Source: Opitutaceae bacterium
GTDB taxonomy: Bacteria; Verrucomicrobiota; Verrucomicrobiia; Opitutales; Opitutaceae
Length of the DNA: 64,000 nucleotides
Direction of reading: 5' to 3'
NCBI GenBank assembly: GCA_003151515.1
Contig: PLXS01000024.1
Location: forward strand, 1-64,000
Shown here piece after piece: positions 7,716 to 23,002 of this stretch. Under the pieces are notes generated by a model. The model was not told the DNA's origin, did not search any database, and saw only the letters and a program-made list of their open reading frames with translations. Numbering within the stretch: the first letter of the stretch is position 1; every line of letters begins with the position of its first letter. The translations under genes were made by a program, and so were the position numbers.

Positions 7716-9296
7716 TCACTTGCCGAGCGTGTTGAGCAGGCCGAACCCGAACTTCTTGACGCCGCCGAGTAACCCGCGCGCGATCGAGACGCCCGAGAGC
7801 GAGATGACCTCCTCGTTGTGGTAGTCGCTCAGCACGAGGTCGCCGGTGCTCCAGAGAGCCGCCGTCCCGTCCGCGAAGTGGATCACGATGTCGAGGCCGT
7901 GCGTCCAGGTGCAGCGGCCCGGGGGCGTTATCCTGACGATGACCTCCTCGCCCTTGAGGTCGGCTTCCGTGAAGCCCTCGCCGGCGGGCGGGACGACCTC
8001 CCTCACGCTCACGCCCGGCCCTATGGCCTGGCCCTGGATGCTGAGGTACGCCACGGCGGCGCCGCCTCCCTTGGGGCCTATCGATATCTCGACGGGCACG
8101 TCGGCGCCCTTGCCCTTGCCGCTTGAGTACAGCTTGACGTCCATCCCCGTGAACTCGTCGCCCGAAACGGGCCTTGCGGCGCGGGCCGCCTCCTGCTGCG
8201 CCGCCGAGCCCGGGGCCCCTGCCGCGGCGCCGGAGCCTGCCGGGGCCACGGGCGCGGGTTCCTGGGTCTGCTGCACGCCACTCCGGCTCAGCAGCTTGAA
8301 CCCGAACTTCTCGACGCCGCCCAGGATCGACGCGTGCGCCGTCGTGGCCAGCGAAAGCGGCACCGTCTCCACGTCCCTTACGGCCGAGAGAACGAGGTCA
8401 CCCGATCCCAGGAGGGCCTGCGAGCCGTCGGCAAAATGGACGATCGCGTCAAACGAGCAGGTCCACGTCCCGCCGCCGGGCGGGGTGACCTTGATGACGA
8501 CCTGCTCCTTCTTCGAGTCGGCGCTCGTGAAGCCGTCCCCGGCCGGCAGCACGACCTCGGACACCTTGCTGAAAGGGGCGAACACCCGGTCGCGGATGTC
8601 GAGGTACGCGACGGCGGGGCCGCCCGCCCTCGGCTCTATCGAGATCTCGACGCGGGTGCCCGGCTCGGCGCCCCGGGCGCCGGTGTCGATCGCGATGTCC
8701 ATGTGCGTGAACTCCTTGGTCGACTTGTGCGGCACGCTTGAGGATACCGGCTCGGGGGCCGCCGCGCTCTTGCTCATCAGGCCGAAGCTGAACTTCTCCA
8801 CGTGGCCCAGGAGCCCCGTGCCCGCGACGGTCGCCAGGGTCAGGGGGACGCTTGCGACGGGCCGCGCCCCGGACAGGCTCAGGCTGCCGGACCCAAGGAG
8901 GGCCTGCGAGCCGTCGTCAAAGTTGAGCACGGCGTCGAAGGACGTGTGCCACATGCCGACGCCGTCCCCGGACAGCCTGAGCTCGATGTGCAGGTGGGAG
9001 AGCTGGTCGCGGGTGAAGCCGCCGTTTGAGGCCGGCACGACGACGCGCACCGTGGCGTAGGGGGACATCTCTACGCCCTGGACGTCCAGGTGGGCGACGG
9101 CGGGGCCGCCGGCGTCGGGGACGATCGAGATCTCCAGGCGGGTCTCGGCGGCCTTGCCCTTGTCGCTCGTGCTGACCGCCATGCTCATCTTCGTGAACTG
9201 GGGCGAGGCCTGAGCGCGGGAGGGCGGCGCCAGGAGCGCCGCGAGGGCCAGGGCGGGCGCGACGGCCGCGATTCTCAGAGTGGATGGGTATGGCAT
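7716..9296 (-). CDS. exported protein with three tandem copies of an unnamed domain
   Basis: The product is 526 aa when started at ATG 9296, which gives a good signal peptide ending in PPSRAQA. A TTG at 9359 in the same frame would add 21 residues with no export character. The mature protein is three copies of a domain of about 140 residues. Each copy has FTxMD, then VEISIxPxxGGPAVAYLDI, then a TW(T/H)xxFDxxxHFADGSQALLGSGDLVLS block, and ends GGVEKFGFxLLS. Copies 2 and 3 are separated by a Pro/Ala-rich linker (around residues 345-380). The pattern suggests stacked beta-sandwich domains. I do not recognise the family. It follows the TIM-barrel gene by 88 nt on the same strand. Confidence 0.7.
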   Translation of the reverse strand: MPYPSTLRIAAVAPALALAALLAPPSRAQASPQFTKMSMAVSTSDKGKAAETRLEISIVPDAGGPAVAHLDVQGVEMSPYATVRVVVPASNGGFTRDQLSHLHIELRLSGDGVGMWHTSFDAVLNFDDGSQALLGSGSLSLSGARPVASVPLTLATVAGTGLLGHVEKFSFGLMSKSAAAPEPVSSSVPHKSTKEFTHMDIAIDTGARGAEPGTRVEISIEPRAGGPAVAYLDIRDRVFAPFSKVSEVVLPAGDGFTSADSKKEQVVIKVTPPGGGTWTCSFDAIVHFADGSQALLGSGDLVLSAVRDVETVPLSLATTAHASILGGVEKFGFKLLSRSGVQQTQEPAPVAPAGSGAAAGAPGSAAQQEAARAARPVSGDEFTGMDVKLYSSGKGKGADVPVEISIGPKGGGAAVAYLSIQGQAIGPGVSVREVVPPAGEGFTEADLKGEEVIVRITPPGRCTWTHGLDIVIHFADGTAALWSTGDLVLSDYHNEEVISLSGVSIARGLLGGVKKFGFGLLNTLGK

Positions 9297-13058: not shown

Positions 13059-15008
13059 ATGAGCGCGGGCATCATGCTTGCAGGCGCCGCGGGCGCACTG
13101 GCGCTGTCCGCCGTCGCCGGCCTCTTCCTGCCGCGCCTCTGGCTTGGCGCCACGGTGGCTGGGCTGGCCGCCGCGTTCTGGGCTGGGGCGGCGGTGCTTG
13201 CGGGGGGGGCCCCCTGGGAGTGGCGCGGCGGGTTTCAGGTCGGGGGGTTCGCGCCGCACCTCCAGCTCGACGGGCTTGGCGCCCTCTTCCTGGTCCTCTT
13301 GGCCGTCGTGGGCGCCTGCGGCGCCGTGTATTCCCGCGGGTACTGGCCGGACCAGGCGCACCCGCGCTCGGCGCGGGTGGGCCGGGTCTGGTGGAGCGTC
13401 CACGTGATGAGCCTGGGCATGGTCCTGCTGTCCGCGAACGGCCTGCTCTTCCTGGTTGCGTGGGAGCTCTTCGCGGTCAGCGGCTACTTCCTGGTGACGC
13501 TGGAGCGCCAGCGCGCGCAGGCCCGGGCCGCGGGATGGCTCTACCTGGCGGTGTCGCACGTGTCCGCGCTCTGCCTCTTCGCCTTCTTCGGAATCCTTGC
13601 CGCGCGAACGGGAAGCTGGGAACTGGGCCCCATGCGCGACCAGCCGGGGCTGGCGCCGCTCTTCTGGCTGGCCCTCTTCGCGTTCGGCATCAAGGCGGGC
13701 GTTTTTCCGCTGCACATCTGGCTGCCGTCGGCCCACTCGAGCGCGCCCAGCCATGTCTCGGCGATCATGTCGGGGGTCAGCATCAAGATCGGGGTCTACG
13801 GCATCCTGCGCTTCGGCGGCTGGCTTGCGGTGCCGGACTCGGCCGGCTGGATCGTGGCCGTCCTGGGCGTGGTTAGCGCGGTGCTGGGCGTCGCCTTCGC
13901 GCTGGGCCAGCACGACCTCAAGCGCCTTCTCGCGTACCACAGCGTCGAGAACATAGGCATCATCCTTGTCGGCGTGGGCTTTGCCATGATCGCGGCCGGG
14001 CAGGGCGACGCGCCGTGGGGTCGGCTGGCCCTGGCGGGCGCGCTCCTGCACGTCTGGAACCACGGCCTGTTCAAGTCGCTCCTGTTCCTCGGGGCGGGAT
14101 CCGTGCTGCATGCGACGGGCGAGCGCGAGATGAGCCGCTTGGGGGGGCTGTGGCGTCTGATGCCGTGGACGGCCAGCCTCTTCGCCCTGGGGGCCGTCGC
14201 GATCTCGGGGCTTCCTCCGCTCAACGGATTCGTCAGCGAGTGGCTGGTCTACATCGGGCTATTCGACGCGTCCGTCGCGCGCGGCGCCGCGGCCTTCGCA
14301 TCGGTCTCCGCCATCGTCCTGCTGGCGCTGACGGGTGCCATGGCCCTGGCCTGCTTCACCAAGGCGTGCGGGGTCTCCTTCCTTGGGTCGCCCCGGAGCG
14401 AATCGGCCGCCCGGGCGCACGAAAGCGGCCCGCTGATGCTGGGGCCGATGCTGGCGCTCGGCTGCCTGTGCGCGGCGATCGGGCTCGCCCCCGTGCTCTT
14501 CTGGCCGGCGATCGACCGCGCCGCCTGCGCGTGGAACCCCGCGTGGGTCGCCATGGGGGCCCCCGCCTCGCTGGCCGCGATCGGCGCCTCGAACATCGCC
14601 CTGGCCCTTGCCTGCCTCGCGGCGGCGGCGCTGCTCTGGCGGCGCGTGACGAGGGTGGGGATGCGGCGCGCGGTCACCTGGGACTGCGGCTACGCGGCGC
14701 CGACGGCCCGCATGCAGTACACCGCCGGCTCGTTCGCCGGCATCATCACGGAATGGTTCGCCTGGATCATGGACCCGCAGGTCCAGAGGGATTGCCCCGA
14801 TGAGCCGTTCCCGTCCCATGCAAGCTATGAGGAGCACACCCCCGAGGTTGTGCTTGAACGCGTCGTGGAGCCTGCGGGGGCGCTGACGATGCGCCTGTAC
14901 GCGGCGGCGCGCCAGCTGCAGCACGGCAGGCTGCAGGCGTACCTGTTCTACATCGTGATCGGCCTGGCGGCGCTGGCCGCCATCGCGGTCATGGGGGGCG
15001 GGCGATGA
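13059..15008 (+). CDS. hyfB: antiporter-like subunit HyfB, copy 1 (Ehr complex)
   Basis: This 649-aa polytopic membrane protein belongs to the NuoL/NuoM/MrpA antiporter family and is of the HyfB type. It has the TM5-type Glu in WELFAVSGYFLV (E136), the TM7 Lys in GIKAGVFPLHIWLPSAH, a TM8 Lys (SIKIGVYGI, K243), HVWNHGLFKSLLF, and a C-terminal Lys in CFTKACG. The hydrophilic C-terminal section TWDCGYAAPTARMQYTAGSF is diagnostic of HyfB-like subunits and precedes a final membrane helix. It should form a proton or sodium channel half. A GGGGG run lies just before the start. It opens the operon and is followed 49 nt later by the EIIA-fusion gene. Confidence 0.92.
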   Translation: MSAGIMLAGAAGALALSAVAGLFLPRLWLGATVAGLAAAFWAGAAVLAGGAPWEWRGGFQVGGFAPHLQLDGLGALFLVLLAVVGACGAVYSRGYWPDQAHPRSARVGRVWWSVHVMSLGMVLLSANGLLFLVAWELFAVSGYFLVTLERQRAQARAAGWLYLAVSHVSALCLFAFFGILAARTGSWELGPMRDQPGLAPLFWLALFAFGIKAGVFPLHIWLPSAHSSAPSHVSAIMSGVSIKIGVYGILRFGGWLAVPDSAGWIVAVLGVVSAVLGVAFALGQHDLKRLLAYHSVENIGIILVGVGFAMIAAGQGDAPWGRLALAGALLHVWNHGLFKSLLFLGAGSVLHATGEREMSRLGGLWRLMPWTASLFALGAVAISGLPPLNGFVSEWLVYIGLFDASVARGAAAFASVSAIVLLALTGAMALACFTKACGVSFLGSPRSESAARAHESGPLMLGPMLALGCLCAAIGLAPVLFWPAIDRAACAWNPAWVAMGAPASLAAIGASNIALALACLAAAALLWRRVTRVGMRRAVTWDCGYAAPTARMQYTAGSFAGIITEWFAWIMDPQVQRDCPDEPFPSHASYEEHTPEVVLERVVEPAGALTMRLYAAARQLQHGRLQAYLFYIVIGLAALAAIAVMGGGR

Positions 15009-15057
15009 GGACGCGCGCACGCTCACGATTCTGCCGCCGCCGGTCGGCCTTCGAGCC

Positions 15058-15759
15058 ATGTACCTGAACCAGATCCAGATAGCCGAGTCCTTCGGCGTGG
15101 AGGAGAAGATCGTTGAGGACTGGATCCGCAACGAGGGCCTTCCGCACACCGTCGACCGCGGCCGCTACCTGTTCGACCGGGTCCAGGTGGCGGACTGGGC
15201 CGCCGCGCGTGGGCTGGCCGCCCAGTCGGGATTCCTCGCGCCCCAGTCCCCGTCGACCGCGACCGCGCTGCGCCTCGGGCCCCTCCTGCGCGCGGGCGGC
15301 ATCTGGCGCGGCGTGGCCCCGGACGGGGTGCTGGGTGTGTTTGAGAAGGTCGTCCGGGCGCTGCCGGGGACCGTCCCGGCGATCCAGAAGGTCCTCATCC
15401 AGCGGCTGCACGCGAAGGATGGCATCAACTTCGCCCCGATCGGCCGCGGCCTCGCCGTGCCGCACCTGAGCGCGCGGGTGGCGCTGGGCCGCGAGTGCGG
15501 CACCCTGGCCCTGCTGCTGCTCAGGGATCCGCTGACCCTGGCCCAGGGCTCGCCGGACGGCGCGCCGCTCACCCGGTTGTTCTTCTTCATCGCCCCGTCC
15601 GCGCGGGCCCACTTGGATATTCTCGGCCGCATCTGCCGCGTCCTCGACCACGGGCCGCTGCCGGACTGCCTGGCGCGGGATTCGACGGACGCCGAGATAT
15701 TGGCGGCGGTGGACGGTCTGGACGAGAGGGCGTCCGCGCAGGGGGGAAAGCCGCGATGA
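15058..15759 (+). CDS. excisionase-type HTH fused to PTS EIIA-2 domain
   Basis: This 233-aa soluble protein has two parts. Residues 1-52 look like a MerR/excisionase-type helix-turn-helix (LNQIQIAESFGVEEKIVEDWIRNEG, then RGRYLFDRVQVADW). Residues about 72-222 resemble a PTS EIIA type-2 (mannitol/nitrogen-regulatory class) domain, with the phosphoacceptor region IGRGLAVPHLS and H136, and a second His (H185) in SARAHLDILGRIC. It is embedded in the Ehr operon, and its TGA overlaps the ATG of the next hyfB copy (ATGA). No other PTS gene is present. A regulatory or sensing role for the complex is likely but unproven. Confidence 0.85.
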   Translation: MYLNQIQIAESFGVEEKIVEDWIRNEGLPHTVDRGRYLFDRVQVADWAAARGLAAQSGFLAPQSPSTATALRLGPLLRAGGIWRGVAPDGVLGVFEKVVRALPGTVPAIQKVLIQRLHAKDGINFAPIGRGLAVPHLSARVALGRECGTLALLLLRDPLTLAQGSPDGAPLTRLFFFIAPSARAHLDILGRICRVLDHGPLPDCLARDSTDAEILAAVDGLDERASAQGGKPR

Positions 15760-17693
15760 CGGGCGACCTGCTGCTGCTCTCATTGATATGCCTCGCGGCG
15801 GGGACCGCCGTGGGCCCCAGGCTCGCGGGGGCGTGGCTCGCGCTCACCCTCGCTGGCGCGTCGGCCGCGCTCGGCGCGGCAATCCTCGTGCTCTACGGCG
15901 GGGCGGCCTGGGAGTGGCGAAGCGCCGTCTCGCTCGGAGGCGAGGCGCTGCACCTGCGCCTCGACGCGGTGAGCGCGATGTTCATGGCCCTGCTGGGCGT
16001 CGTGGGCGGGGCGGGGGCCGTGTTCGCGCAGGGGTACTGGACGGACGGCGAGCATCCCGATTCGGCGCCGCGCGGCAGGCTGTGGTGGGACGCGATGCTC
16101 CTGAGCATGTCCGTCGTGCTTCTCTCGTCCAACGGCCTTCATTTCCTGATCGCATGGGAGCTGTTCGCTATCAGCAGCTACTTCCTGATCTCCCTCGAGC
16201 GCGAGCGGCGCGAGGCGCGCGCCGCGGGCTGGCTCTTCCTGGCGGCCTCGCACGCGGGCACGCTCTGCCTCTTCGCCTTCTTCGCCGTGCTTGCGGGGCG
16301 AAACGGCACATGGGACCTGGGCCCGATGCAGGGGCGCGCAGAGCTGGCCCCGTTCTTCTGGCTCGCGCTCGCCGGCTTCGGGGTGAAGGCGGGCCTCTTC
16401 CCGATGCACGTCTGGCTCCCGTCCGCGCACGCCAGCGCCCCGAGCCACGTGTCCGCCCTCATGTCGGGAATGGCCATCAACATGGGCGTCTACGGGATCG
16501 TGCGCTTCAGCGGCTGGATGCCGGCGCCCGCGCTTGCGGGCTGGGCCATGGTCGGGGCCGGGGCCTGCGGCGCCGTGCTCGGGATCGCGTTCGCGCTCGC
16601 GCAGAACGACCTCAAGCGGCTGCTCGCCTACTGCTCAGTCGAGAACGTGGGCGTCATCTTCATGGGGCTTGGCGGCGCGATGCTCGGCGCGGCGCACGGG
16701 GACGCGCCCTGGGGGCGGCTCCTGCTCGCCGGCGCGCTACTGCACGTGTGGAACCACGGCCTGTGCAAGTCGCTCCTGTTCCTCTGCGCGGGCTCCGTCC
16801 TGCACGCCACCGGCACCCGCGAGATGAGCAGGCTCGGCGGGCTCTGGAGGGCGATGCCCTGGACCGCGGCGCTTTTCGCCATGGGCTCGGTGGCGATCTC
16901 CGGCCTGCCGCCGCTCAACGGGTTCGTGAGCGAATGGCTCGTGTACCTTGGGCTTTTCGATGCGGTGTCGGGGCGCGGGGTCCTCGGGTGGGCGGCGATG
17001 CCTGCGGCCGTCGCGCTCGCCGGGGCGGGCGCGCTCGCGCTTGCAAGCTTCGTCAAGGCCGGGGCCGTCGTGTTCCTCGGCGCCGCGCGAACCGAGGCCG
17101 CGGCGCCGGCGCACGAGTGCGGGGCGCTGATGCGCGCTCCCATGCTGGCGCTGGGCGGCGCATGCGCGCTTCTTGCGCTCGCCCCGGCCGCGGCGTGGCC
17201 CGCGCTGGCACGCGCGACGGGCGCATGGCACCCGGCCTGGGCGGACCCGGCGACGCCCGTTCCCCTGGCCGTCCTTGGCTTCGTGAACACGGCGCTCGCG
17301 CTCTGCCTCGCAGCCGCCGTTGGGGCGCTTTGGGCCAGGGTGAGGGTGAACGGCCTGCGCCGCGCGCCCACCTGGGACTGCGGGTATGCGGCGCCGGACG
17401 CGCGGATGCAGTACACGGGCGGCTCCTTCGGGAGAACGGCCTCGGACTGGTTCTCGTGGATCCTGCTGCCGGAGCGGGTCATGCGCCGGCCCCGCGGGCC
17501 GTTTCCGCCGAACACGGTCCTGTTCGAGCGCGTCCCGGAGACCGTGCTTGAGCGCCTCGTGAGCCCGGTGGCGGCGGGGGTCATGCGGCTGGCCTCCGGC
17601 GCACGCCGCCTTCAGCACGGCCGGGTGCAGTTCTACATCGTCTATCTGGTGGGCGGCATCACAGTGCTGGCCATCCTTGCCCTGCTCGGATGA
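15756..17693 (+). CDS. hyfB: antiporter-like subunit HyfB, copy 2 (Ehr complex)
   Basis: This 645-aa protein is a clear paralogue of the first HyfB, co-linear over its full length including the TWDCGYAAPDARMQYTGGSF segment and the last helix. The TM5-type Glu (E135 in WELFAISSYFLI), the TM7 Lys in GVKAGLFPMHVWLPSAH, HVWNHGLCKSLLF and the C-terminal Lys (SFVKAGA) are kept. The TM8 Lys of copy 1 is Asn here (AINMGVYGI, N242), so the two copies may not be equivalent ion channels. I start at ATG 15756, which overlaps the preceding stop (ATGA) after a GGGGGGAAAG motif. Longer upstream reading is non-coding in this frame. Confidence 0.92.
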   Translation: MTGDLLLLSLICLAAGTAVGPRLAGAWLALTLAGASAALGAAILVLYGGAAWEWRSAVSLGGEALHLRLDAVSAMFMALLGVVGGAGAVFAQGYWTDGEHPDSAPRGRLWWDAMLLSMSVVLLSSNGLHFLIAWELFAISSYFLISLERERREARAAGWLFLAASHAGTLCLFAFFAVLAGRNGTWDLGPMQGRAELAPFFWLALAGFGVKAGLFPMHVWLPSAHASAPSHVSALMSGMAINMGVYGIVRFSGWMPAPALAGWAMVGAGACGAVLGIAFALAQNDLKRLLAYCSVENVGVIFMGLGGAMLGAAHGDAPWGRLLLAGALLHVWNHGLCKSLLFLCAGSVLHATGTREMSRLGGLWRAMPWTAALFAMGSVAISGLPPLNGFVSEWLVYLGLFDAVSGRGVLGWAAMPAAVALAGAGALALASFVKAGAVVFLGAARTEAAAPAHECGALMRAPMLALGGACALLALAPAAAWPALARATGAWHPAWADPATPVPLAVLGFVNTALALCLAAAVGALWARVRVNGLRRAPTWDCGYAAPDARMQYTGGSFGRTASDWFSWILLPERVMRRPRGPFPPNTVLFERVPETVLERLVSPVAAGVMRLASGARRLQHGRVQFYIVYLVGGITVLAILALLG

Positions 17694-18607
17694 ACACCGC
17701 CGTGTCATTCCTCGAACTGCCCGCCCGCCTTGCGGCGTGGCTCCTGCTTGCGCCGCTCCTGCCGGGCATCATAAACAGGGTGAAGGCCTGGGTCGCCGGT
17801 CGGCGGGGGCCGCCCCTCCTGCAGCTCTACTACGACCTCGCGCGCCTCTGGCGCAAGAGCGTCGTGATGAGCACCCTTGCGTCCCCCGGCTTCATCGTGG
17901 GCCCCGCGGTCGCGTGGGTGGCCGTGGCGGGCGCCGCGCTTCTCATGCCGATCGGGGCCGCAGGCGGCGCCCTGAGCTTCAGGGGGGACGTGCTGCTCCT
18001 CATCTATCTTCTGGCGCTCGCGCGGTTCGCCACCGCCTGGGCCGCGCTTGAGACGGGCTCGGCGTTCGAGGGGATGGGCGCGGCGCGCGAGGTGAGCTTC
18101 GGAGTGCTTGCGGAGGCGGCGCTCATAGCCGCGGTGCTGTCGCTAAGCGTGCAGTCGGGGAGCACGACGCTCGACGCCATGCTAGCGCCGTCGGCGTGGC
18201 CCGGGGCCGTGCTGCTGGCCTCCGGCCTTTTCGCCGTGCTGCTCGCCGAGAACTGCCGCGTCCCGTTCGACGATCCGAACACGCACCTTGAGCTGACCAT
18301 GATCCACGAGGCGATGGTGCTCGACCACAGCGGGCCCCCGCTGGCGGTGGTGCTGCACGGGGCCTCCGTGAAGCTCCTGCTCTTCGCGGTGCTGCTGAGC
18401 GAGGCGGCGCTCCCGATCGGGCGGCTGGCGCCCGGCGCCGGCGCCGCGGCCCTCGCCGGCTCGGTGCTGGCGGTGACCGCCGGGATCGGGCTCGTCGAGT
18501 CCTTCATGGCCCGGTTCGCCTTCCGGCGCGTGCCGCTGCTGCTGACCGCGGCGTTCCTTCTGTGCCTGTTCGCGCTCGTGCTCGCCTGGAAGGGGGGCGC
18601 CCAATGA
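17690..18607 (+). CDS. hyfC: HyfC/NuoH-like membrane subunit (Ehr complex)
   Basis: This 305-aa membrane protein has about eight helices and is of the complex I subunit 1 (NuoH/HyfC/EchB) family. It shows NRVKAWVAGRRGPPLLQLYYDLARLWRK near the N-terminus and the family signature ENCRVPFDDPNTHLELTMIHEAMVLDHSGP in the second half, with its Glu and Asp residues intact. This subunit anchors the peripheral arm to the membrane and links redox chemistry to ion movement. Its ATG overlaps the previous stop, and its TGA overlaps the next ATG. Confidence 0.93.
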   Translation: MNTAVSFLELPARLAAWLLLAPLLPGIINRVKAWVAGRRGPPLLQLYYDLARLWRKSVVMSTLASPGFIVGPAVAWVAVAGAALLMPIGAAGGALSFRGDVLLLIYLLALARFATAWAALETGSAFEGMGAAREVSFGVLAEAALIAAVLSLSVQSGSTTLDAMLAPSAWPGAVLLASGLFAVLLAENCRVPFDDPNTHLELTMIHEAMVLDHSGPPLAVVLHGASVKLLLFAVLLSEAALPIGRLAPGAGAAALAGSVLAVTAGIGLVESFMARFAFRRVPLLLTAAFLLCLFALVLAWKGGAQ

Positions 18608-19245
18608 TCGGCTCGGTCAACCTCCTGATCGGGCTCGCCATGGGGCTCAACCTGATGGCGCTCGGCAGCAGCCGCCTTCCGTCGGTCATCCGCGCGATGG
18701 CGGTGCAGGGCGTCGCGCTCGGCCTGCTGCCGCTCCTGATGAGCGAGCACTTCGAGCTGCTGGTCGCGCTGGCGGCCGTGGGCACCGTGATCATCAAGGG
18801 CTTTGTGATCCCGCACCTGCTGCGCCGCGCGATGCGCGCCGCCAACATAGACCGCGAGGTCGAGCCGCTGGTCGGGTACGTCCCCTCGCTCCTCCTGGGC
18901 GCGGCGGGCACGATCGCCGCCGTCGCCGTGACCTACAGGCTGCCGCTGCTCCCGGAACACGCCCACACGCTCCTGGTGCCCGGCTCGCTCGCGACAATCT
19001 TCACCGGCTTCATCCTTCTCATCTGCAGGGTGAAGGCCATTTCGCAGGTCTGCGGCTACCTGATCCTCGAGAACGGGATATACCTGTTCGGCCTGCTCCT
19101 GATCCGCTCGACGCCGTTCCTGGTCGAGTCCGGGATACTCCTGGACCTGACGGTGGGCGTGTTCGTGATCGGCATCATCGCGGACCGCATCCAGCGGGCG
19201 TTCGACTCCCTGGACACCCGCAAGCTGACCGTGCTCCGCGAATGA
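18604..19245 (+). CDS. hyfE: HyfE-like membrane subunit (Ehr complex)
   Basis: This 213-aa membrane protein has six or seven helices and matches HyfE, whose core corresponds to NuoK. It starts MIGSVNLLIGLAMGLNLMALGSS, and the second part contains CGYLILENGIYLFGLLL with the membrane-embedded Glu typical of NuoK/HyfE. I use the ATG at 18604, which overlaps the hyfC stop (ATGA); an earlier in-frame start lies inside hyfC. It also overlaps hyfF by four bases. Confidence 0.92.
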   Translation: MIGSVNLLIGLAMGLNLMALGSSRLPSVIRAMAVQGVALGLLPLLMSEHFELLVALAAVGTVIIKGFVIPHLLRRAMRAANIDREVEPLVGYVPSLLLGAAGTIAAVAVTYRLPLLPEHAHTLLVPGSLATIFTGFILLICRVKAISQVCGYLILENGIYLFGLLLIRSTPFLVESGILLDLTVGVFVIGIIADRIQRAFDSLDTRKLTVLRE

Positions 19246-20684
19246 GGGAGGACCTGCTCATCATCCTGCCGTTCGCCGGCGCCATCCTCGCCTGGTTCTG
19301 GCCCACCGAGCGGACGCGCCCGCTCCTGCTGCCGGCGGTCGGCCTCGCGCACACGGCGCTGGCGTTCTGGCTGCTCGCGGCCCCTCCGGCCGTGGCGCCG
19401 GGGGCGTGGCTCGGCTTTGACGCGCTCTCGCGGGCGCTCTTGCCCGCCGTCTCGCTCCTGTTCCTCGTGTGCGCGGCCTACAGCGTGCCCTACCTGAGGA
19501 TGCGCACGGAGCGCCCGAACCGGGTGTTCGTCTCGCTCCTGCTCGCGATCCTGGGGCTCATGAGCACGGCCCACCAGGCGCGCCACCTGGGCGTCCTCTG
19601 GATTGCGACGGAGGCGCTCACGTTCGCGGCGGTGCCGCTCATCCACTTCAACGCCACGGCCAGGGCCTTCGAGGCAACATGGAAGTACCTGCTGATCGGG
19701 GGCACCGGGATCGCGCTCTCGCTCCTGGGCTCCTTCTGCCTGGGCTACGCGTCCCTGCACGGCGGCGGTACGGGCGACCTAACCTTCGCCGCGCTGGCGG
19801 CGCAGGGCGCGTCGCTGTCGGGACCCTGGGTGACGATCGCCTGGGTGCTCCTGCTCGCCGGCTACGGGACGAAGATGGGGCTTGCGCCGATGCACACCTG
19901 GAAGCCCGACGTCTACGGCGAGGCCTCCGGGGTGGTCGGGGCGATCCTCGCGGGGGGCGTGACGACGGTCGCCTTCACGGCCCTGCTTCGCGTGCGGACC
20001 GTCGTGGACGCCGCCGGCGGGAGCGCGATGGCCGCCCGGACGCTCCTCGCGATCGGGCTCTTCTCCATGTTCGTCGCGGCCCTGTTCCTGCTCGGGACCC
20101 GCGACTTCAAGCGGATGCTCGCGTACTCGAGCGTCGAGCACATGGGCATCCTCGTCATCGCGACCGCGCTCGGCCGCATCGGCGTCTGGGCGGCCCTCTT
20201 CCACGTGTGGAACAACAGCGTCACGAAGGGCAGCCTTTTCCTGAGCGCCGGCAACATCCGCCGGGCGGCCGGGGCGCGAACCGCAGACGAGGTGAGCGGC
20301 ATGTTCGCGGTGACGCCCCGCTCGGCCGCGATATTCGTGGCGGGGATGTTCGCGGTCACGGCCTGCCCGCCGTTCGGCCCCTTCTTCAGCGAGCTGCTCG
20401 TGGTGCGCGCGGCGTTTGCGGGCGGCAACTGGGCGGCCGCGGCCATATTCCTTGGCTGCCTATTCCTGGCGTTCCTCGGCATGACGCGCCTCGTGTTCGC
20501 GGTCGTCGACGGCCGGCCGCGCGCGTCCGCCAAGCAGGGGCCGAGGCAATTCAGGGAGACGGCGGGGCTCATCGTGCCCCCGCTGGTGCTGCTCGCCCTC
20601 TCCCTCTGGCTCGGTCTCGCGACGCCGTCGGTGCTGCGCGACTCGTGGACGGCCGCGGCGAACCAGGTTTTCCCGGGGCCATGA
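19242..20684 (+). CDS. hyfF: antiporter-like subunit HyfF (Ehr complex)
   Basis: This 480-aa NuoM/N-type membrane protein has the conserved Glu in LWIATEALTFAAVPLIHF, the Lys-containing GYGTKMGLAPMHTWKPDVYGEA, DFKRMLAYSSVEHMGILVIA, and HVWNNSVTKGSLFLSAGN. These are HyfF features. Together with two HyfB copies it gives the complex three antiporter-like subunits. It overlaps both neighbours by four bases (ATGA), which indicates translational coupling. Confidence 0.92.
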   Translation: MREDLLIILPFAGAILAWFWPTERTRPLLLPAVGLAHTALAFWLLAAPPAVAPGAWLGFDALSRALLPAVSLLFLVCAAYSVPYLRMRTERPNRVFVSLLLAILGLMSTAHQARHLGVLWIATEALTFAAVPLIHFNATARAFEATWKYLLIGGTGIALSLLGSFCLGYASLHGGGTGDLTFAALAAQGASLSGPWVTIAWVLLLAGYGTKMGLAPMHTWKPDVYGEASGVVGAILAGGVTTVAFTALLRVRTVVDAAGGSAMAARTLLAIGLFSMFVAALFLLGTRDFKRMLAYSSVEHMGILVIATALGRIGVWAALFHVWNNSVTKGSLFLSAGNIRRAAGARTADEVSGMFAVTPRSAAIFVAGMFAVTACPPFGPFFSELLVVRAAFAGGNWAAAAIFLGCLFLAFLGMTRLVFAVVDGRPRASAKQGPRQFRETAGLIVPPLVLLALSLWLGLATPSVLRDSWTAAANQVFPGP

Positions 20685-22162
20685 ACGCGGCACAACCCTT
20701 TGCGCAGCTCACGAACGCCACGGCGCTTCCCTGGCCGCAGGTGCCCGACCTGCCGGTCTCGCGGCTGCTGGAGGCCACGGCGGCCGAGCTCGACCGGGGC
20801 GCGCGCCTCTGCGCGTGGTTCGGCGTGCCGGAGGACGGCGCAACGAGGTTGGCGGCCGTTCTCGCCTATGACGCCGACAACGTGCTTGCAGTCGCCCGCA
20901 GCCATCCGACGAGCGGGAGCTACCCCTCGCTCACCCCGGCGCACCCCCAGGCGCACCTGTTCGAGCGGGAGATCTGGGAGCAGCACGGCCTGAAGCCCGA
21001 GGGCCACCCGTGGCTCAAGCCCATGCGCGCCCTGCGGGGCGGCGCCCCCGCCAACGCCGAGTTCTTCCGCGTGGAGGGGCGCGAGGTGCACGAGGTCGCG
21101 GTCGGCCCGGTCCACGCGGGGGTCATCGAGCCCGGGCATTTCCGGTTCCAGTGCTCGGGCGAGGAGGTGCTTCACCTCGAGATCGCGCTCGGCTACCAGC
21201 ACCGGGGGATCGAGGGCGCGCTCGCCGGGGGGCCGCACCGCGCGACGCAGGTCCAGGTGGAGGCGATTGCCGGCGATTCGACCGTCGGGCACGCGACGGC
21301 GTTCGCCTCGGCCATGGAGGCCCTCGGGGGCGGGGAGGCCCCCCTGCGGGCCCAGTGGCTGCGCCTCATCGCGCTCGAGCTTGAGCGGCTGGCGAACCAC
21401 ACCGGGGACATCGGCGCGCTGGCCGGCGACGTGGCCTTCCTGCCGTCGGCGTCGGCATGCGGCAGGATCCGCGGCGACCTCCTCAACCTGACGGCGCTTG
21501 TCTGCGGCAACCGCTTCGGGCGCGGGCTCGTGGCCCCGGGGGGCTGCCGCCACGACCTCGACACGGCGCGCCTGGCCGAGATCGGCGAAAGGCTCGACAG
21601 GGCGCTTGCGGATGCCGAGCAGGCGTGCACGTGGCTCTGGGACGCCGCATCGGTGCGGTCGCGCTTCGAGAGCACGGGCACCGTGTCCTCCAAGCAGGCG
21701 AACGACCTGGGCCTCGTCGGGCTCGCCGCCCGCGCGTGCGGGCTGGTTCGCGACGTGCGCTACGACCATGCGGCCGGATGGCACCGCTTCGCGCAGGCGC
21801 CCGTGGCCGTGTGGCCGAGCGGGGACGTCTTCGGCCGGGCCCGCGTGCGCTGGCTCGAGATCCAGCGCTCCGGCCAGATGGTGAGGGAGCAGCTCGCCGG
21901 GCCCCCGGAGGGCGGGGTGCGCGACGCGGCCCCAGAGGCCGCCCCGGACATGCTGGCCGTCGCCCTGGTCGAGGGCTGGCGCGGCGAGATCTGCCACGTG
22001 GCGCTCACCGGCCCCCGGGGGGAGATCCGCCGCTACAAGATCGTCGACCCCTCCTTCCACAACTGGATGGGCCTCGCGATGGCCATGCGCGGCCAGGCCG
22101 TCTCGGACTTTCCCATCTGCAACAAGAGCTTCAACCTGTCCTACTGCGGGGTCGACCTCTAG
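20681..22162 (+). CDS. hyfG: HyfG-like large subunit lacking NiFe ligands (Ehr complex)
   Basis: This 493-aa protein combines a NuoC-like part (residues 1-115, with FEREIWEQHGLKPEGHPWLKPMR) and a NuoD/hydrogenase large-subunit-like part (VGPVHAGVIEPGHFRF at 141-156, GYQHRGIE at 171-178). In group 4 hydrogenases the first NiFe motif reads RICGxC; here residues 193-204 read VEAIAGDSTVGH, with Ala197 and Ser200 in place of the cysteines. The C-terminal DPCxxC motif is replaced by SFNLSYCGVDL (483-493). The protein also ends there, without the tail that hydrogenases have cleaved during maturation. The NiFe centre cannot form, so this is an Ehr-type, non-hydrogenase subunit. It is coupled to hyfF by ATGA. 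Confidence 0.92.
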   Translation: MNAAQPFAQLTNATALPWPQVPDLPVSRLLEATAAELDRGARLCAWFGVPEDGATRLAAVLAYDADNVLAVARSHPTSGSYPSLTPAHPQAHLFEREIWEQHGLKPEGHPWLKPMRALRGGAPANAEFFRVEGREVHEVAVGPVHAGVIEPGHFRFQCSGEEVLHLEIALGYQHRGIEGALAGGPHRATQVQVEAIAGDSTVGHATAFASAMEALGGGEAPLRAQWLRLIALELERLANHTGDIGALAGDVAFLPSASACGRIRGDLLNLTALVCGNRFGRGLVAPGGCRHDLDTARLAEIGERLDRALADAEQACTWLWDAASVRSRFESTGTVSSKQANDLGLVGLAARACGLVRDVRYDHAAGWHRFAQAPVAVWPSGDVFGRARVRWLEIQRSGQMVREQLAGPPEGGVRDAAPEAAPDMLAVALVEGWRGEICHVALTGPRGEIRRYKIVDPSFHNWMGLAMAMRGQAVSDFPICNKSFNLSYCGVDL

Positions 22163-22183
22163 GACCCGAGCCCCGCTTCCGCC

Positions 22184-23002
22184 ATGTTCGTCCTCGACAC
22201 ACTCACCCACAGGCTCAAGCGCGGCTGCGAGACGATGGATTACCCCAAGGGAGCGCCTGCGGCGCTGCCCGACAGGCACGGCGGCTCCCTGCGCGTGGAA
22301 TCCTCGAAATGCGCCGAGCGCTGCAGCGAATGCGCCGGGGTCTGCCCGACGCAGGCGATCATGCCGCGCGCCCAAAAGGGCGTCACGCTCGACCTGGGCC
22401 GCTGCATCTTCTGCGCGGCGTGCGTCGAGGCGTGCCCCGAGGGCGCGATCACCCAGACCGGCGACCACCGGATGGCGGCGCGCACGCGAGCCGACCTCGT
22501 CCTCGGGGAGGAGGGCAGGGAGGAGGTGCGCCTGGCACCGGCGCTTGACGCGAAGCTTCGCAGTCTCCTCGGCCGCTCGCTCAAGCTTCGCGTGGTGAGC
22601 GCCGGCGGGTGCGGCGCTGAGGAGGCCGACCTGAACGTGCTCGGCACCATTGGCTGGGACATCGGCCGCTTCGGAATCCAGTTTGTCGCCTCCCCGCGGC
22701 ACGCGGACGGCCTGGTCATCACCGGGCCCGTCTCCCGGGGCATGGAGCTCGCCCTCAAGAAGACGTGGGATGCCGTGCCCGACCCGAAGATCGCGATCGC
22801 CGTCGGGTCCTCCGCGGTCTCCGGGGTGCCGTTCACGGGCAACCCGGAGGTCCTTGCCGGCGCCTCGTCGGTCGTGCCCGTTGACCTCTACATCCCGGGC
22901 TGGCCGCCCCATCCGCTGACGATCCTGGACGGCCTGCTGCGGCTCCTGGGCAGGCTGGGGAACGACCGGTTCACCCCGCCCGCCAGGCCTCCCGCGGCCT
23001 AA
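22184..23002 (+). CDS. ferredoxin (HyfH)-NuoB/HyfI fusion subunit with lost proximal-cluster ligands
   Basis: This 272-aa protein is the last gene of the Ehr operon, 21 nt after hyfG. Residues 1-95 hold two [4Fe-4S] ferredoxin motifs: C43-x3-C47-x2-C50-x3-C54-P (unusual x3 spacing after the first Cys) and the standard C74-x2-C77-x2-C80-x3-C84-P. Residues about 132-258 are NuoB/HyfI-like (LKLRVVSAGGCG, LVITGPVSRGM, IAIAVGSS, YIPGWPPHP). The proximal cluster needs four cysteines, but only C143 remains. The second of the first pair is Glu146, the AVG(D/S)C position is Ser, and PGCPP has become PGWPP (W240). HyfH and HyfI are normally separate proteins. The electron path beyond the ferredoxin clusters is therefore unclear. 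Confidence 0.88.
   Translation: MFVLDTLTHRLKRGCETMDYPKGAPAALPDRHGGSLRVESSKCAERCSECAGVCPTQAIMPRAQKGVTLDLGRCIFCAACVEACPEGAITQTGDHRMAARTRADLVLGEEGREEVRLAPALDAKLRSLLGRSLKLRVVSAGGCGAEEADLNVLGTIGWDIGRFGIQFVASPRHADGLVITGPVSRGMELALKKTWDAVPDPKIAIAVGSSAVSGVPFTGNPEVLAGASSVVPVDLYIPGWPPHPLTILDGLLRLLGRLGNDRFTPPARPPAA

Follow-up and report, generated by a model that had tools for sequence, protein, structure and literature searches.

The stretch of DNA considered here, which we call the window, is 64,000 nucleotides from an Opitutaceae genome, and from 13059 to 23002 it holds eight co-directional genes, all of them open frames, with coding sequences that overlap or lie at most 50 bases apart. In order, these genes encode a HyfB-like protein, a helix-turn-helix/EIIA (HTH-EIIA) protein, a second HyfB-like protein, HyfC-, HyfE- and HyfF-like proteins, a hydrogenase-like large subunit and a fusion of a ferredoxin domain to a NuoB-like small subunit (Table 1). 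An earlier note on this DNA took the operon for a full, well-preserved member of the energy-converting hydrogenase-related (Ehr) complexes (PMC6349859, PMC10284858, PMC10432482), for which the usual proposal (PMC6349859) is a redox reaction coupled to charge translocation. What is left for such a complex to do once some of its metal sites disappear? Alignments show that, in the window, the ligand sites of the NiFe center and of the proximal cluster (N2 in complex I) are both gone, that a tryptophan is fixed at one of the N2 positions and that the residues of the ion path are intact.

The large subunit, whose translation is open throughout, has E. coli formate hydrogenlyase as its top solved-structure match (large subunit, 7z0s_E; residues 79-488 aligned, E = 9.4e-38), and when it is aligned with HycE/HyfG both NiFe motifs prove to have lost both of their cysteines, just as the earlier note had claimed: RVCGIC has become AIAGDS (A197, S200), and DPCYSC has become NLSYCG (S487, G490). 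The alignment check for cysteines that persist at shifted positions has now been run. Cys489 and Cys480 do lie near motif 2 (Cys489 is one position ahead of that motif's last cysteine, where other Ehr complexes have Ser or Ala), yet motif 1 has no cysteine at all, so a four-cysteine NiFe site is impossible. Nor is the replacement random, to judge from the alignments. The motif that stands in place of the ligands, AGD ... NKSFxLSYCGxDL, is common to close relatives, which makes NiFe loss a family trait, of a known Ehr type; G198, D199, N481, K482, S483, F484, L486, S487, Y488, C489, G490, D492 and L493 are all invariant in 57 aligned large subunits (the window and 56 relatives). Across 117 large-subunit/NuoD rows, every row of the same type that covers the sites carries the same replacement, and the only one with all four NiFe cysteines is a true hydrogenase at 27% identity (L015). 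A tree of 34 large subunits, which comes with long-branch warnings, puts all 25 NiFe-less rows in one clade (100/99), sister to E. coli HycE/HyfG (96/96); the window groups there and not with NuoD or the true hydrogenase, and its assignment to Ehr therefore stands. The column of Y87 of Thermus thermophilus Nqo4, which adjoins the first motif and which we take to be the quinone-site tyrosine of complex I, holds Gly198 in the window (alignment with 2fug_4) and no tyrosine. A structure model of the large subunit was set aside, and no inference is drawn from it (mean predicted local distance difference test score, pLDDT, 75.5; residues 116-174 and 473-493, motif 2 included, below 50).

The second loss, in the small subunit, went unnoticed in the earlier note. 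At the four positions that should hold the proximal [4Fe-4S] cluster, the window reads C143, E146, S210 and W240 (CESW), with three of the four cysteines gone. Of the 101 rows that include both subunits, 89 read CCCC and the other 12 do not, and it is here that "full, well-preserved" fails: most close relatives keep a site that the window lacks. One of the 12 (L116) is a second copy of the window sequence, leaving 11 distinct N2-less sequences, and what these have in common goes beyond the missing cysteines. Cys240 is Trp in all 11; G144 and V178 are likewise common to all 11, L150 to 10 and M198 to 8 (the window not among them); and position 195 of the large subunit, next to the former NiFe motif, is Ala or Val in 10 of 11 N2-less rows versus 6 of 89 intact ones. 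The other subunits show a few weaker differences between N2-less and intact rows. From their position near the motifs, G144, L150 and V178 would line the N2 site. The remaining three ligand positions vary (C/S/D/N at 143, E/A/V/D at 146, C/S/D/E/G/A at 210), as is to be expected once the cluster has gone, and the ligand states of N2-less relatives include DDGW, SEEW and NEDW, as well as CACW in L036. A sequencing or assembly error in the small subunit is ruled out, since its PGWPP is found in ten other distinct sequences. To treat the proximal cluster as a criterion for Ehr is our own reading of the usual redox proposal; the cited literature, in its accessible parts, does not give it as defining.

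How common is this loss, and did it happen once? Our sampling of Ehr covers plasmids, a portion of a single phylum and the 80 top matches from one genome scan. Within the same family, 42 of 252 genomes match the fusion protein, 37 with the window's type as judged by identity (64-100%) and 5 with a second type alone; the 37 divide into 10 that are N2-less (the window included), 26 that are CCCC and 1 with a broken frame. Of 543 related loci, the best 80 are for the most part verrucomicrobial; a few lie in records with the titles Desulfomicrobium, Desulfovibrionales, Gemmatimonadetes, Planctomycetota, Elusimicrobia or Deltaproteobacteria. Most of the 80 are metagenome bins, and some of the titles may be wrong. 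Free trees want 4 or 3 changes of N2 state in Verrucomicrobiota (the large subunit alone wants 7, the small subunit alone 2). We nevertheless set aside several separate losses inside the phylum: a single origin is not rejected by the approximately unbiased (AU) test (p 0.52 to 0.93), and it is favored because the N2-less rows share their changes. A scan for the Trp pattern picked out 10 of 387 genomes, but at the loci of 8 of them there was no small-subunit match, so those pattern matches are chance.

The operon is also being maintained. The ratio of nonsynonymous to synonymous change (dN/dS) between the window and five N2-less relatives is 0.11-0.36 across every comparable gene pair, resembles that against two N2-intact relatives and is lowest in the HyfC/NuoH-like gene (0.11-0.16 in the six comparisons that include it), values that are rough because synonymous sites are near saturation and that, for L156, cover the last two genes only. 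As far as coding sequence can tell, they show purifying selection.

The second verrucomicrobial type, about 40% identical to the first, keeps N2, has at most four ferredoxin cysteines in the rows printed and often lies in tandem with the first type or nested inside it. Tandem pairs were seen at L184 (genome G135), L156 (G663), L067, L083, L087, L112, L096 and L174, and at L184 and L156 the second cluster interrupts the first, with F on one side and G on the other; the arrangement suggests that the two act together. At L160 (G634), which is N2-less, about 0.8 kb separates F from G (roughly 7876-8647), at the place where L184 and L156 hold the nested cluster, and this gap may be the scar of one.

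Clusters have been lost in remote Ehr complexes as well. The plasmid Ehr of Allomeiothermus silvanus has T, D, E and S at the N2 positions, and that of Mycobacterium branderi has N, D, D and A; the ferredoxin domain of each keeps four of eight cysteines, consistent with one cluster. In a tree of 31 rows, 8 of them N2-less (and with the caveats of long branches and of groups named after the data had been seen), the AU test rejects a single clade of all N2-less rows (p 0.00014), as well as a common origin of Allomeiothermus with M. branderi (p 0.0008), of Allomeiothermus with the window clade (p 0.00026) and of M. branderi with the window clade (p 0.00014). Elsewhere it is the ferredoxin part that is missing. 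Plasmid clusters of Variovorax (cluster 2), Rhodococcus, Rhizobium, Paraburkholderia and Methylocalor—four proteobacterial, one from Rhodococcus—encode an N2 subunit of 175-180 aa that lacks a ferredoxin domain, and their listed neighbors, in gene tables that are incomplete, include nothing NuoI-like; the ferredoxin–NuoB fusion is present in Variovorax cluster 1 and in the Burkholderia and Caballeronia clusters. Two class relatives (L232, L237) keep N2 and one ferredoxin cysteine each. With N2 lost in some Ehr complexes and the ferredoxin clusters in others, there is, by ligand motifs, no metal cluster common to all of those examined. The residues of the ion path are another matter: the Glu of transmembrane helix 5 (TM5), the Lys of TM7 and the Glu of TM12 are kept in 18 of 19 aligned Ehr antiporter subunits.

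A few observations on these clusters are recorded for their own sake. The exceptional antiporter subunit, without all three residues, is the HyfF-like protein of Rhodococcus (L200:8286-9803). Plasmid pMESIL01 of Allomeiothermus silvanus carries two N2-less Ehr copies (L199, L204) with mostly identical protein accessions, in a larger duplicated stretch with a sugar ABC transporter. An Ehr-like small subunit on a Streptomyces plasmid (L217:8845-9357) has one of its four N2 cysteines changed to Arg, perhaps a further N2 loss in progress; it is not counted here, its large subunit not having been found in the fetched stretch and the locus being absent from the tree. Universal stress protein genes lie near the Ehr clusters of unrelated bacteria at L198, L201, L202 and L205, and spermidine synthase-like genes lie near those at L198 and L202.

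Table 1. The eight genes of the Ehr operon in the window, in order
Feature	Coordinates	Strand	Length (aa)	Matches and remarks
B1, HyfB-like antiporter subunit	13059..15008	+	649	Proton_antipo_M E=3.4e-49; best NCBIfam match, hydrogenase 4 subunit B, is below the family cut-off
Helix-turn-helix + PTS EIIA-like regulator	15058..15759	+	233	PTS_EIIA_2 E=3.2e-5 and HTH_17 E=7e-4, both under the curated Pfam cut-off
B2, second HyfB-like antiporter subunit	15756..17693	+	645	Proton_antipo_M E=2.9e-46
HyfC/NuoH-like membrane subunit	17690..18607	+	305	NADHdh E=4.7e-25
HyfE-like membrane subunit	18562..19245	+	227	NCBIfam hydrogenase 4 membrane subunit E=6.6e-22, below cut-off; no Pfam match; start codon uncertain, overlaps preceding gene
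HyfF-like antiporter subunit	19242..20684	+	480	Proton_antipo_M E=2e-42
Large subunit, NuoC+NuoD fusion type, HycE/HyfG-like	20681..22162	+	493	Complex1_30kDa, Complex1_49kDa, motif alignments; no NiFe cysteines
Fused small subunit	22184..23002	+	272	Ferredoxin domain (8 Cys, two [4Fe-4S] expected) + HycG/NuoB-like domain without proximal cluster site

Within the operon, the three antiporter-like subunits counted in the earlier note are indeed there, and each, when compared with E. coli NuoM, keeps the three ion-path residues: Glu136, Lys212 and Glu394 in B1; Glu135, Lys211 and Glu393 in B2; and Glu124, Lys211 and Glu384 in the HyfF-like subunit. The TM8 lysine survives in B1 only, being Asn in B2 and missing from the HyfF-like subunit, the same as in E. 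coli HyfF. An active-site-type His is present in the EIIA-like protein of all 89 aligned rows, a count that takes in duplicate loci, and HPr finds one match in the window genome. The operon's eight genes include no formate dehydrogenase gene and no hyp maturation gene, as had been said; for hyp, however, what is true of the operon is not true of the genome, where contig C40 carries hypF and hypD as well as two frames that match the NiFe large-subunit family (NiFeSe_Hases), so that the missing maturation genes are a feature of the operon only. A scan for promoters and terminators gave nothing above shuffles. In 66 sets of flanking genes, the commoner clusters of open reading frames (ORFs) are operon genes or ORFs in overlapping frames (the latter by eye, not individually checked); 15 of the 66 share a flanking protein of about 600 aa, and by eye no flank gene is commoner.

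One group of relatives comes with a regulatory hint. Four plasmid Ehr clusters (M. branderi, Burkholderia cenocepacia, Burkholderia multivorans and Caballeronia; loci L205, L206, L215 and L216) adjoin fluoride riboswitches, and in the three that are annotated a coding-strand riboswitch precedes the first gene of the run that contains Ehr (L205 4100-4173, L206 2858-2928, L216 3857-3927); CrcB, pyrophosphatase, enolase or DUF190 genes lie near. In PMC11139923, a review, formate hydrogen lyase is listed among the commonest fluoride-riboswitch-associated enzymes and interpreted as metabolism, and Na+/H+ antiporters of the fluoride regulon are said to contribute to pH homeostasis. None of the four fluoride-linked large subunits has the four-cysteine set (M. 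branderi has a single Cys, at the first position of motif 2), so these clusters are unlikely to be formate hydrogenlyases. Ion or pH homeostasis would be the simpler reading, and the fluoride literature may be misnaming such complexes when it speaks of "formate hydrogen lyase."

What, then, does the window complex do? We would say, with about even confidence, that it is an Ehr complex, NiFe-less like its whole clade, which has also lost N2 in a mainly Opitutaceae lineage and which works as an ion translocator. The electron path would be cut between the ferredoxin domain and the former active-site cavity, and electrons could not reach the old cavity efficiently because, without N2, the gap from the inner ferredoxin cluster would be too long for fast transfer (an argument that leans on the distances between clusters in complex I). 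The window complex could still hold two ferredoxin clusters, which may be structural or serve as a redox sensor; the hydrophilic arm would be a scaffold or gate that delivers no electrons to a substrate; and the whole would act as a translocator of the Mrp/complex I type, exchanging protons or cations or letting protons re-enter. The EIIA-like protein, encoded inside the operon, may tie expression or activity to the state of the phosphotransferase system (PTS). Because the Ehr complexes examined share no metal cluster and nearly all of their aligned antiporter subunits keep the ion-path residues, we infer that their conserved job is ion translocation and not the delivery of electrons to a catalytic site. 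The earlier note's statement that the substrate of Ehr is unknown still holds; given the loss of N2, a redox substrate at the canonical site is unlikely for the N2-less clade.

Several facts weigh against this reading. The strongest, and the one most at odds with a purely non-redox view, is that all ten N2-less family members, the window included, keep eight of eight ferredoxin cysteines. N2 itself is kept by most relatives, which may mean that the family at large has stayed redox active. Two of the changes that N2-less rows have in common fall outside the N2 motifs, at positions 61 and 66 in the ferredoxin part. The fluoride-linked clusters form a clade of their own, on a long branch, and their C-terminal motif is another one; in the window, L036, L084 and L071, no Rfam match to the fluoride riboswitch (RF01734) reached the gathering score, and on that ground we reject fluoride control of the window operon. 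And ion transport by the complex is, after all, a proposal drawn from its residues. A bolder version, which we find conceivable but short of probable, would have the Ehr class as a whole be ion translocators built on a hydrogenase scaffold, not oxidoreductases, with the cavity of a lost N2 converted to a conformational switch, packed or lined with acidic residues, by which the antiporter subunits are gated; NiFe is gone throughout, and N2 and both ferredoxin clusters have each been lost in some lineage.

Could the complex still be an oxidoreductase? Electrons from ferredoxin or a partner dehydrogenase would enter the two ferredoxin clusters, leave by some other route (to a soluble acceptor, or through a non-standard metal at the old N2 site) and drive the pump. 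The kept ferredoxin cysteines and the intact N2 of most relatives speak for this, as do the acidic residues often found where N2 cysteines were (E146 in the window, the DDGW, SEEW and NEDW rows, TDES in Allomeiothermus, NDDA in M. branderi), which could bind a metal. We nonetheless think it rather unlikely. At three of the four ligand positions the residue differs from one N2-less row to another, which is unlike a conserved metal site; only Trp is fixed, and none of the CACW residues of L036 is acidic; the eight operon genes include no dehydrogenase; and Allomeiothermus and M. branderi have ferredoxin cysteines enough for one cluster only.

That the N2-less complex is a decaying or redundant copy, with another complex in the same cell doing the work, we consider improbable. 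Three of the ten N2-less family genomes do hold a second-type cluster, adjacent and with N2 intact in G135 and G663 and on another contig in G740. The other seven, the window included, yield one small-subunit match each at E <= 1e-35, a count taken from mostly draft genomes, the window's being 92% complete; dN/dS is about as low as against N2-intact relatives; the 11 N2-less sequences have changes in common; and all eight window genes are open frames. No more credible is a large-subunit cavity that couples ion flow to a non-redox reaction (hydration of CO2 or uptake of bicarbonate, say), a reading for which the CO2-concentrating NDH-1 and DAB systems are precedents and the conserved motif in place of the NiFe ligands implies a kept ligand or substrate, but for which the eight operon genes offer no carbonic anhydrase-like protein and the flanks, by eye, no gene in more than 15 of 66 sets.

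Whichever way this is settled, relatives that have N2 or lack it, and whose ferredoxin clusters number two, one or none, amount to a natural series that tests the redox proposal directly, for a redox pump should not survive the loss of its terminal cluster at least three times. They are also natural controls for the debate on how the arm of complex I is coupled to its antiporters, the membrane machine having been kept here without the terminal electron carrier.

How does the complex stand beside known systems? It resembles Ehr in its group 4-like operon, its antiporter-like subunits, its NiFe-less large subunit and the clade it shares with NiFe-less sequences, and it differs in a small subunit that is fused to a ferredoxin domain and lacks the proximal site, in its two HyfB-like subunits and in the HTH-EIIA gene within the operon. 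E. coli hydrogenase-4 (Hyf) and formate hydrogenlyase-1 (Hyc), its best solved-structure matches (large subunit by sequence, small-subunit domain by fold), have a similar gene order, B-C-E-F-G-H/I, but the window has neither the NiFe nor the proximal cluster site, its H and I are fused and HyfA and HyfJ are missing from the eight genes; of what marks a group 4a [NiFe] hydrogenase, the four NiFe cysteines are absent and hyp genes are available in the cell. Mbx/Mbs of Pyrococcus, a group 4 relative without hydrogenase activity, gives a weak large-subunit sequence match (6u8y_L, E = 5.9e-14); Mbs is thought to use its N2-equivalent cluster as the catalytic site, and that cluster is what the window complex lacks. 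The fluoride-riboswitch Ehr complexes, annotated as NuoH/NuoC/NuoB, share the missing NiFe ligand set and the ferredoxin–NuoB fusion (and, in M. branderi, the loss of N2), whereas they differ from the window in their fluoride regulon, their DUF190 neighbor and a C-terminal EASFGL, with no EIIA gene among the listed neighbors. The antiporter subunits have the TM5 Glu, TM7 Lys and TM12 Glu of Mrp antiporters and the membrane arm of complex I; unlike Mrp, the complex has a hydrophilic arm, and unlike complex I, it has no NADH module. In the open-access literature we found no account of N2 loss in Ehr, which is weak evidence that it is unreported. NiFe-less Ehr complexes were already known; the loss of N2 would be the new feature of the window complex.

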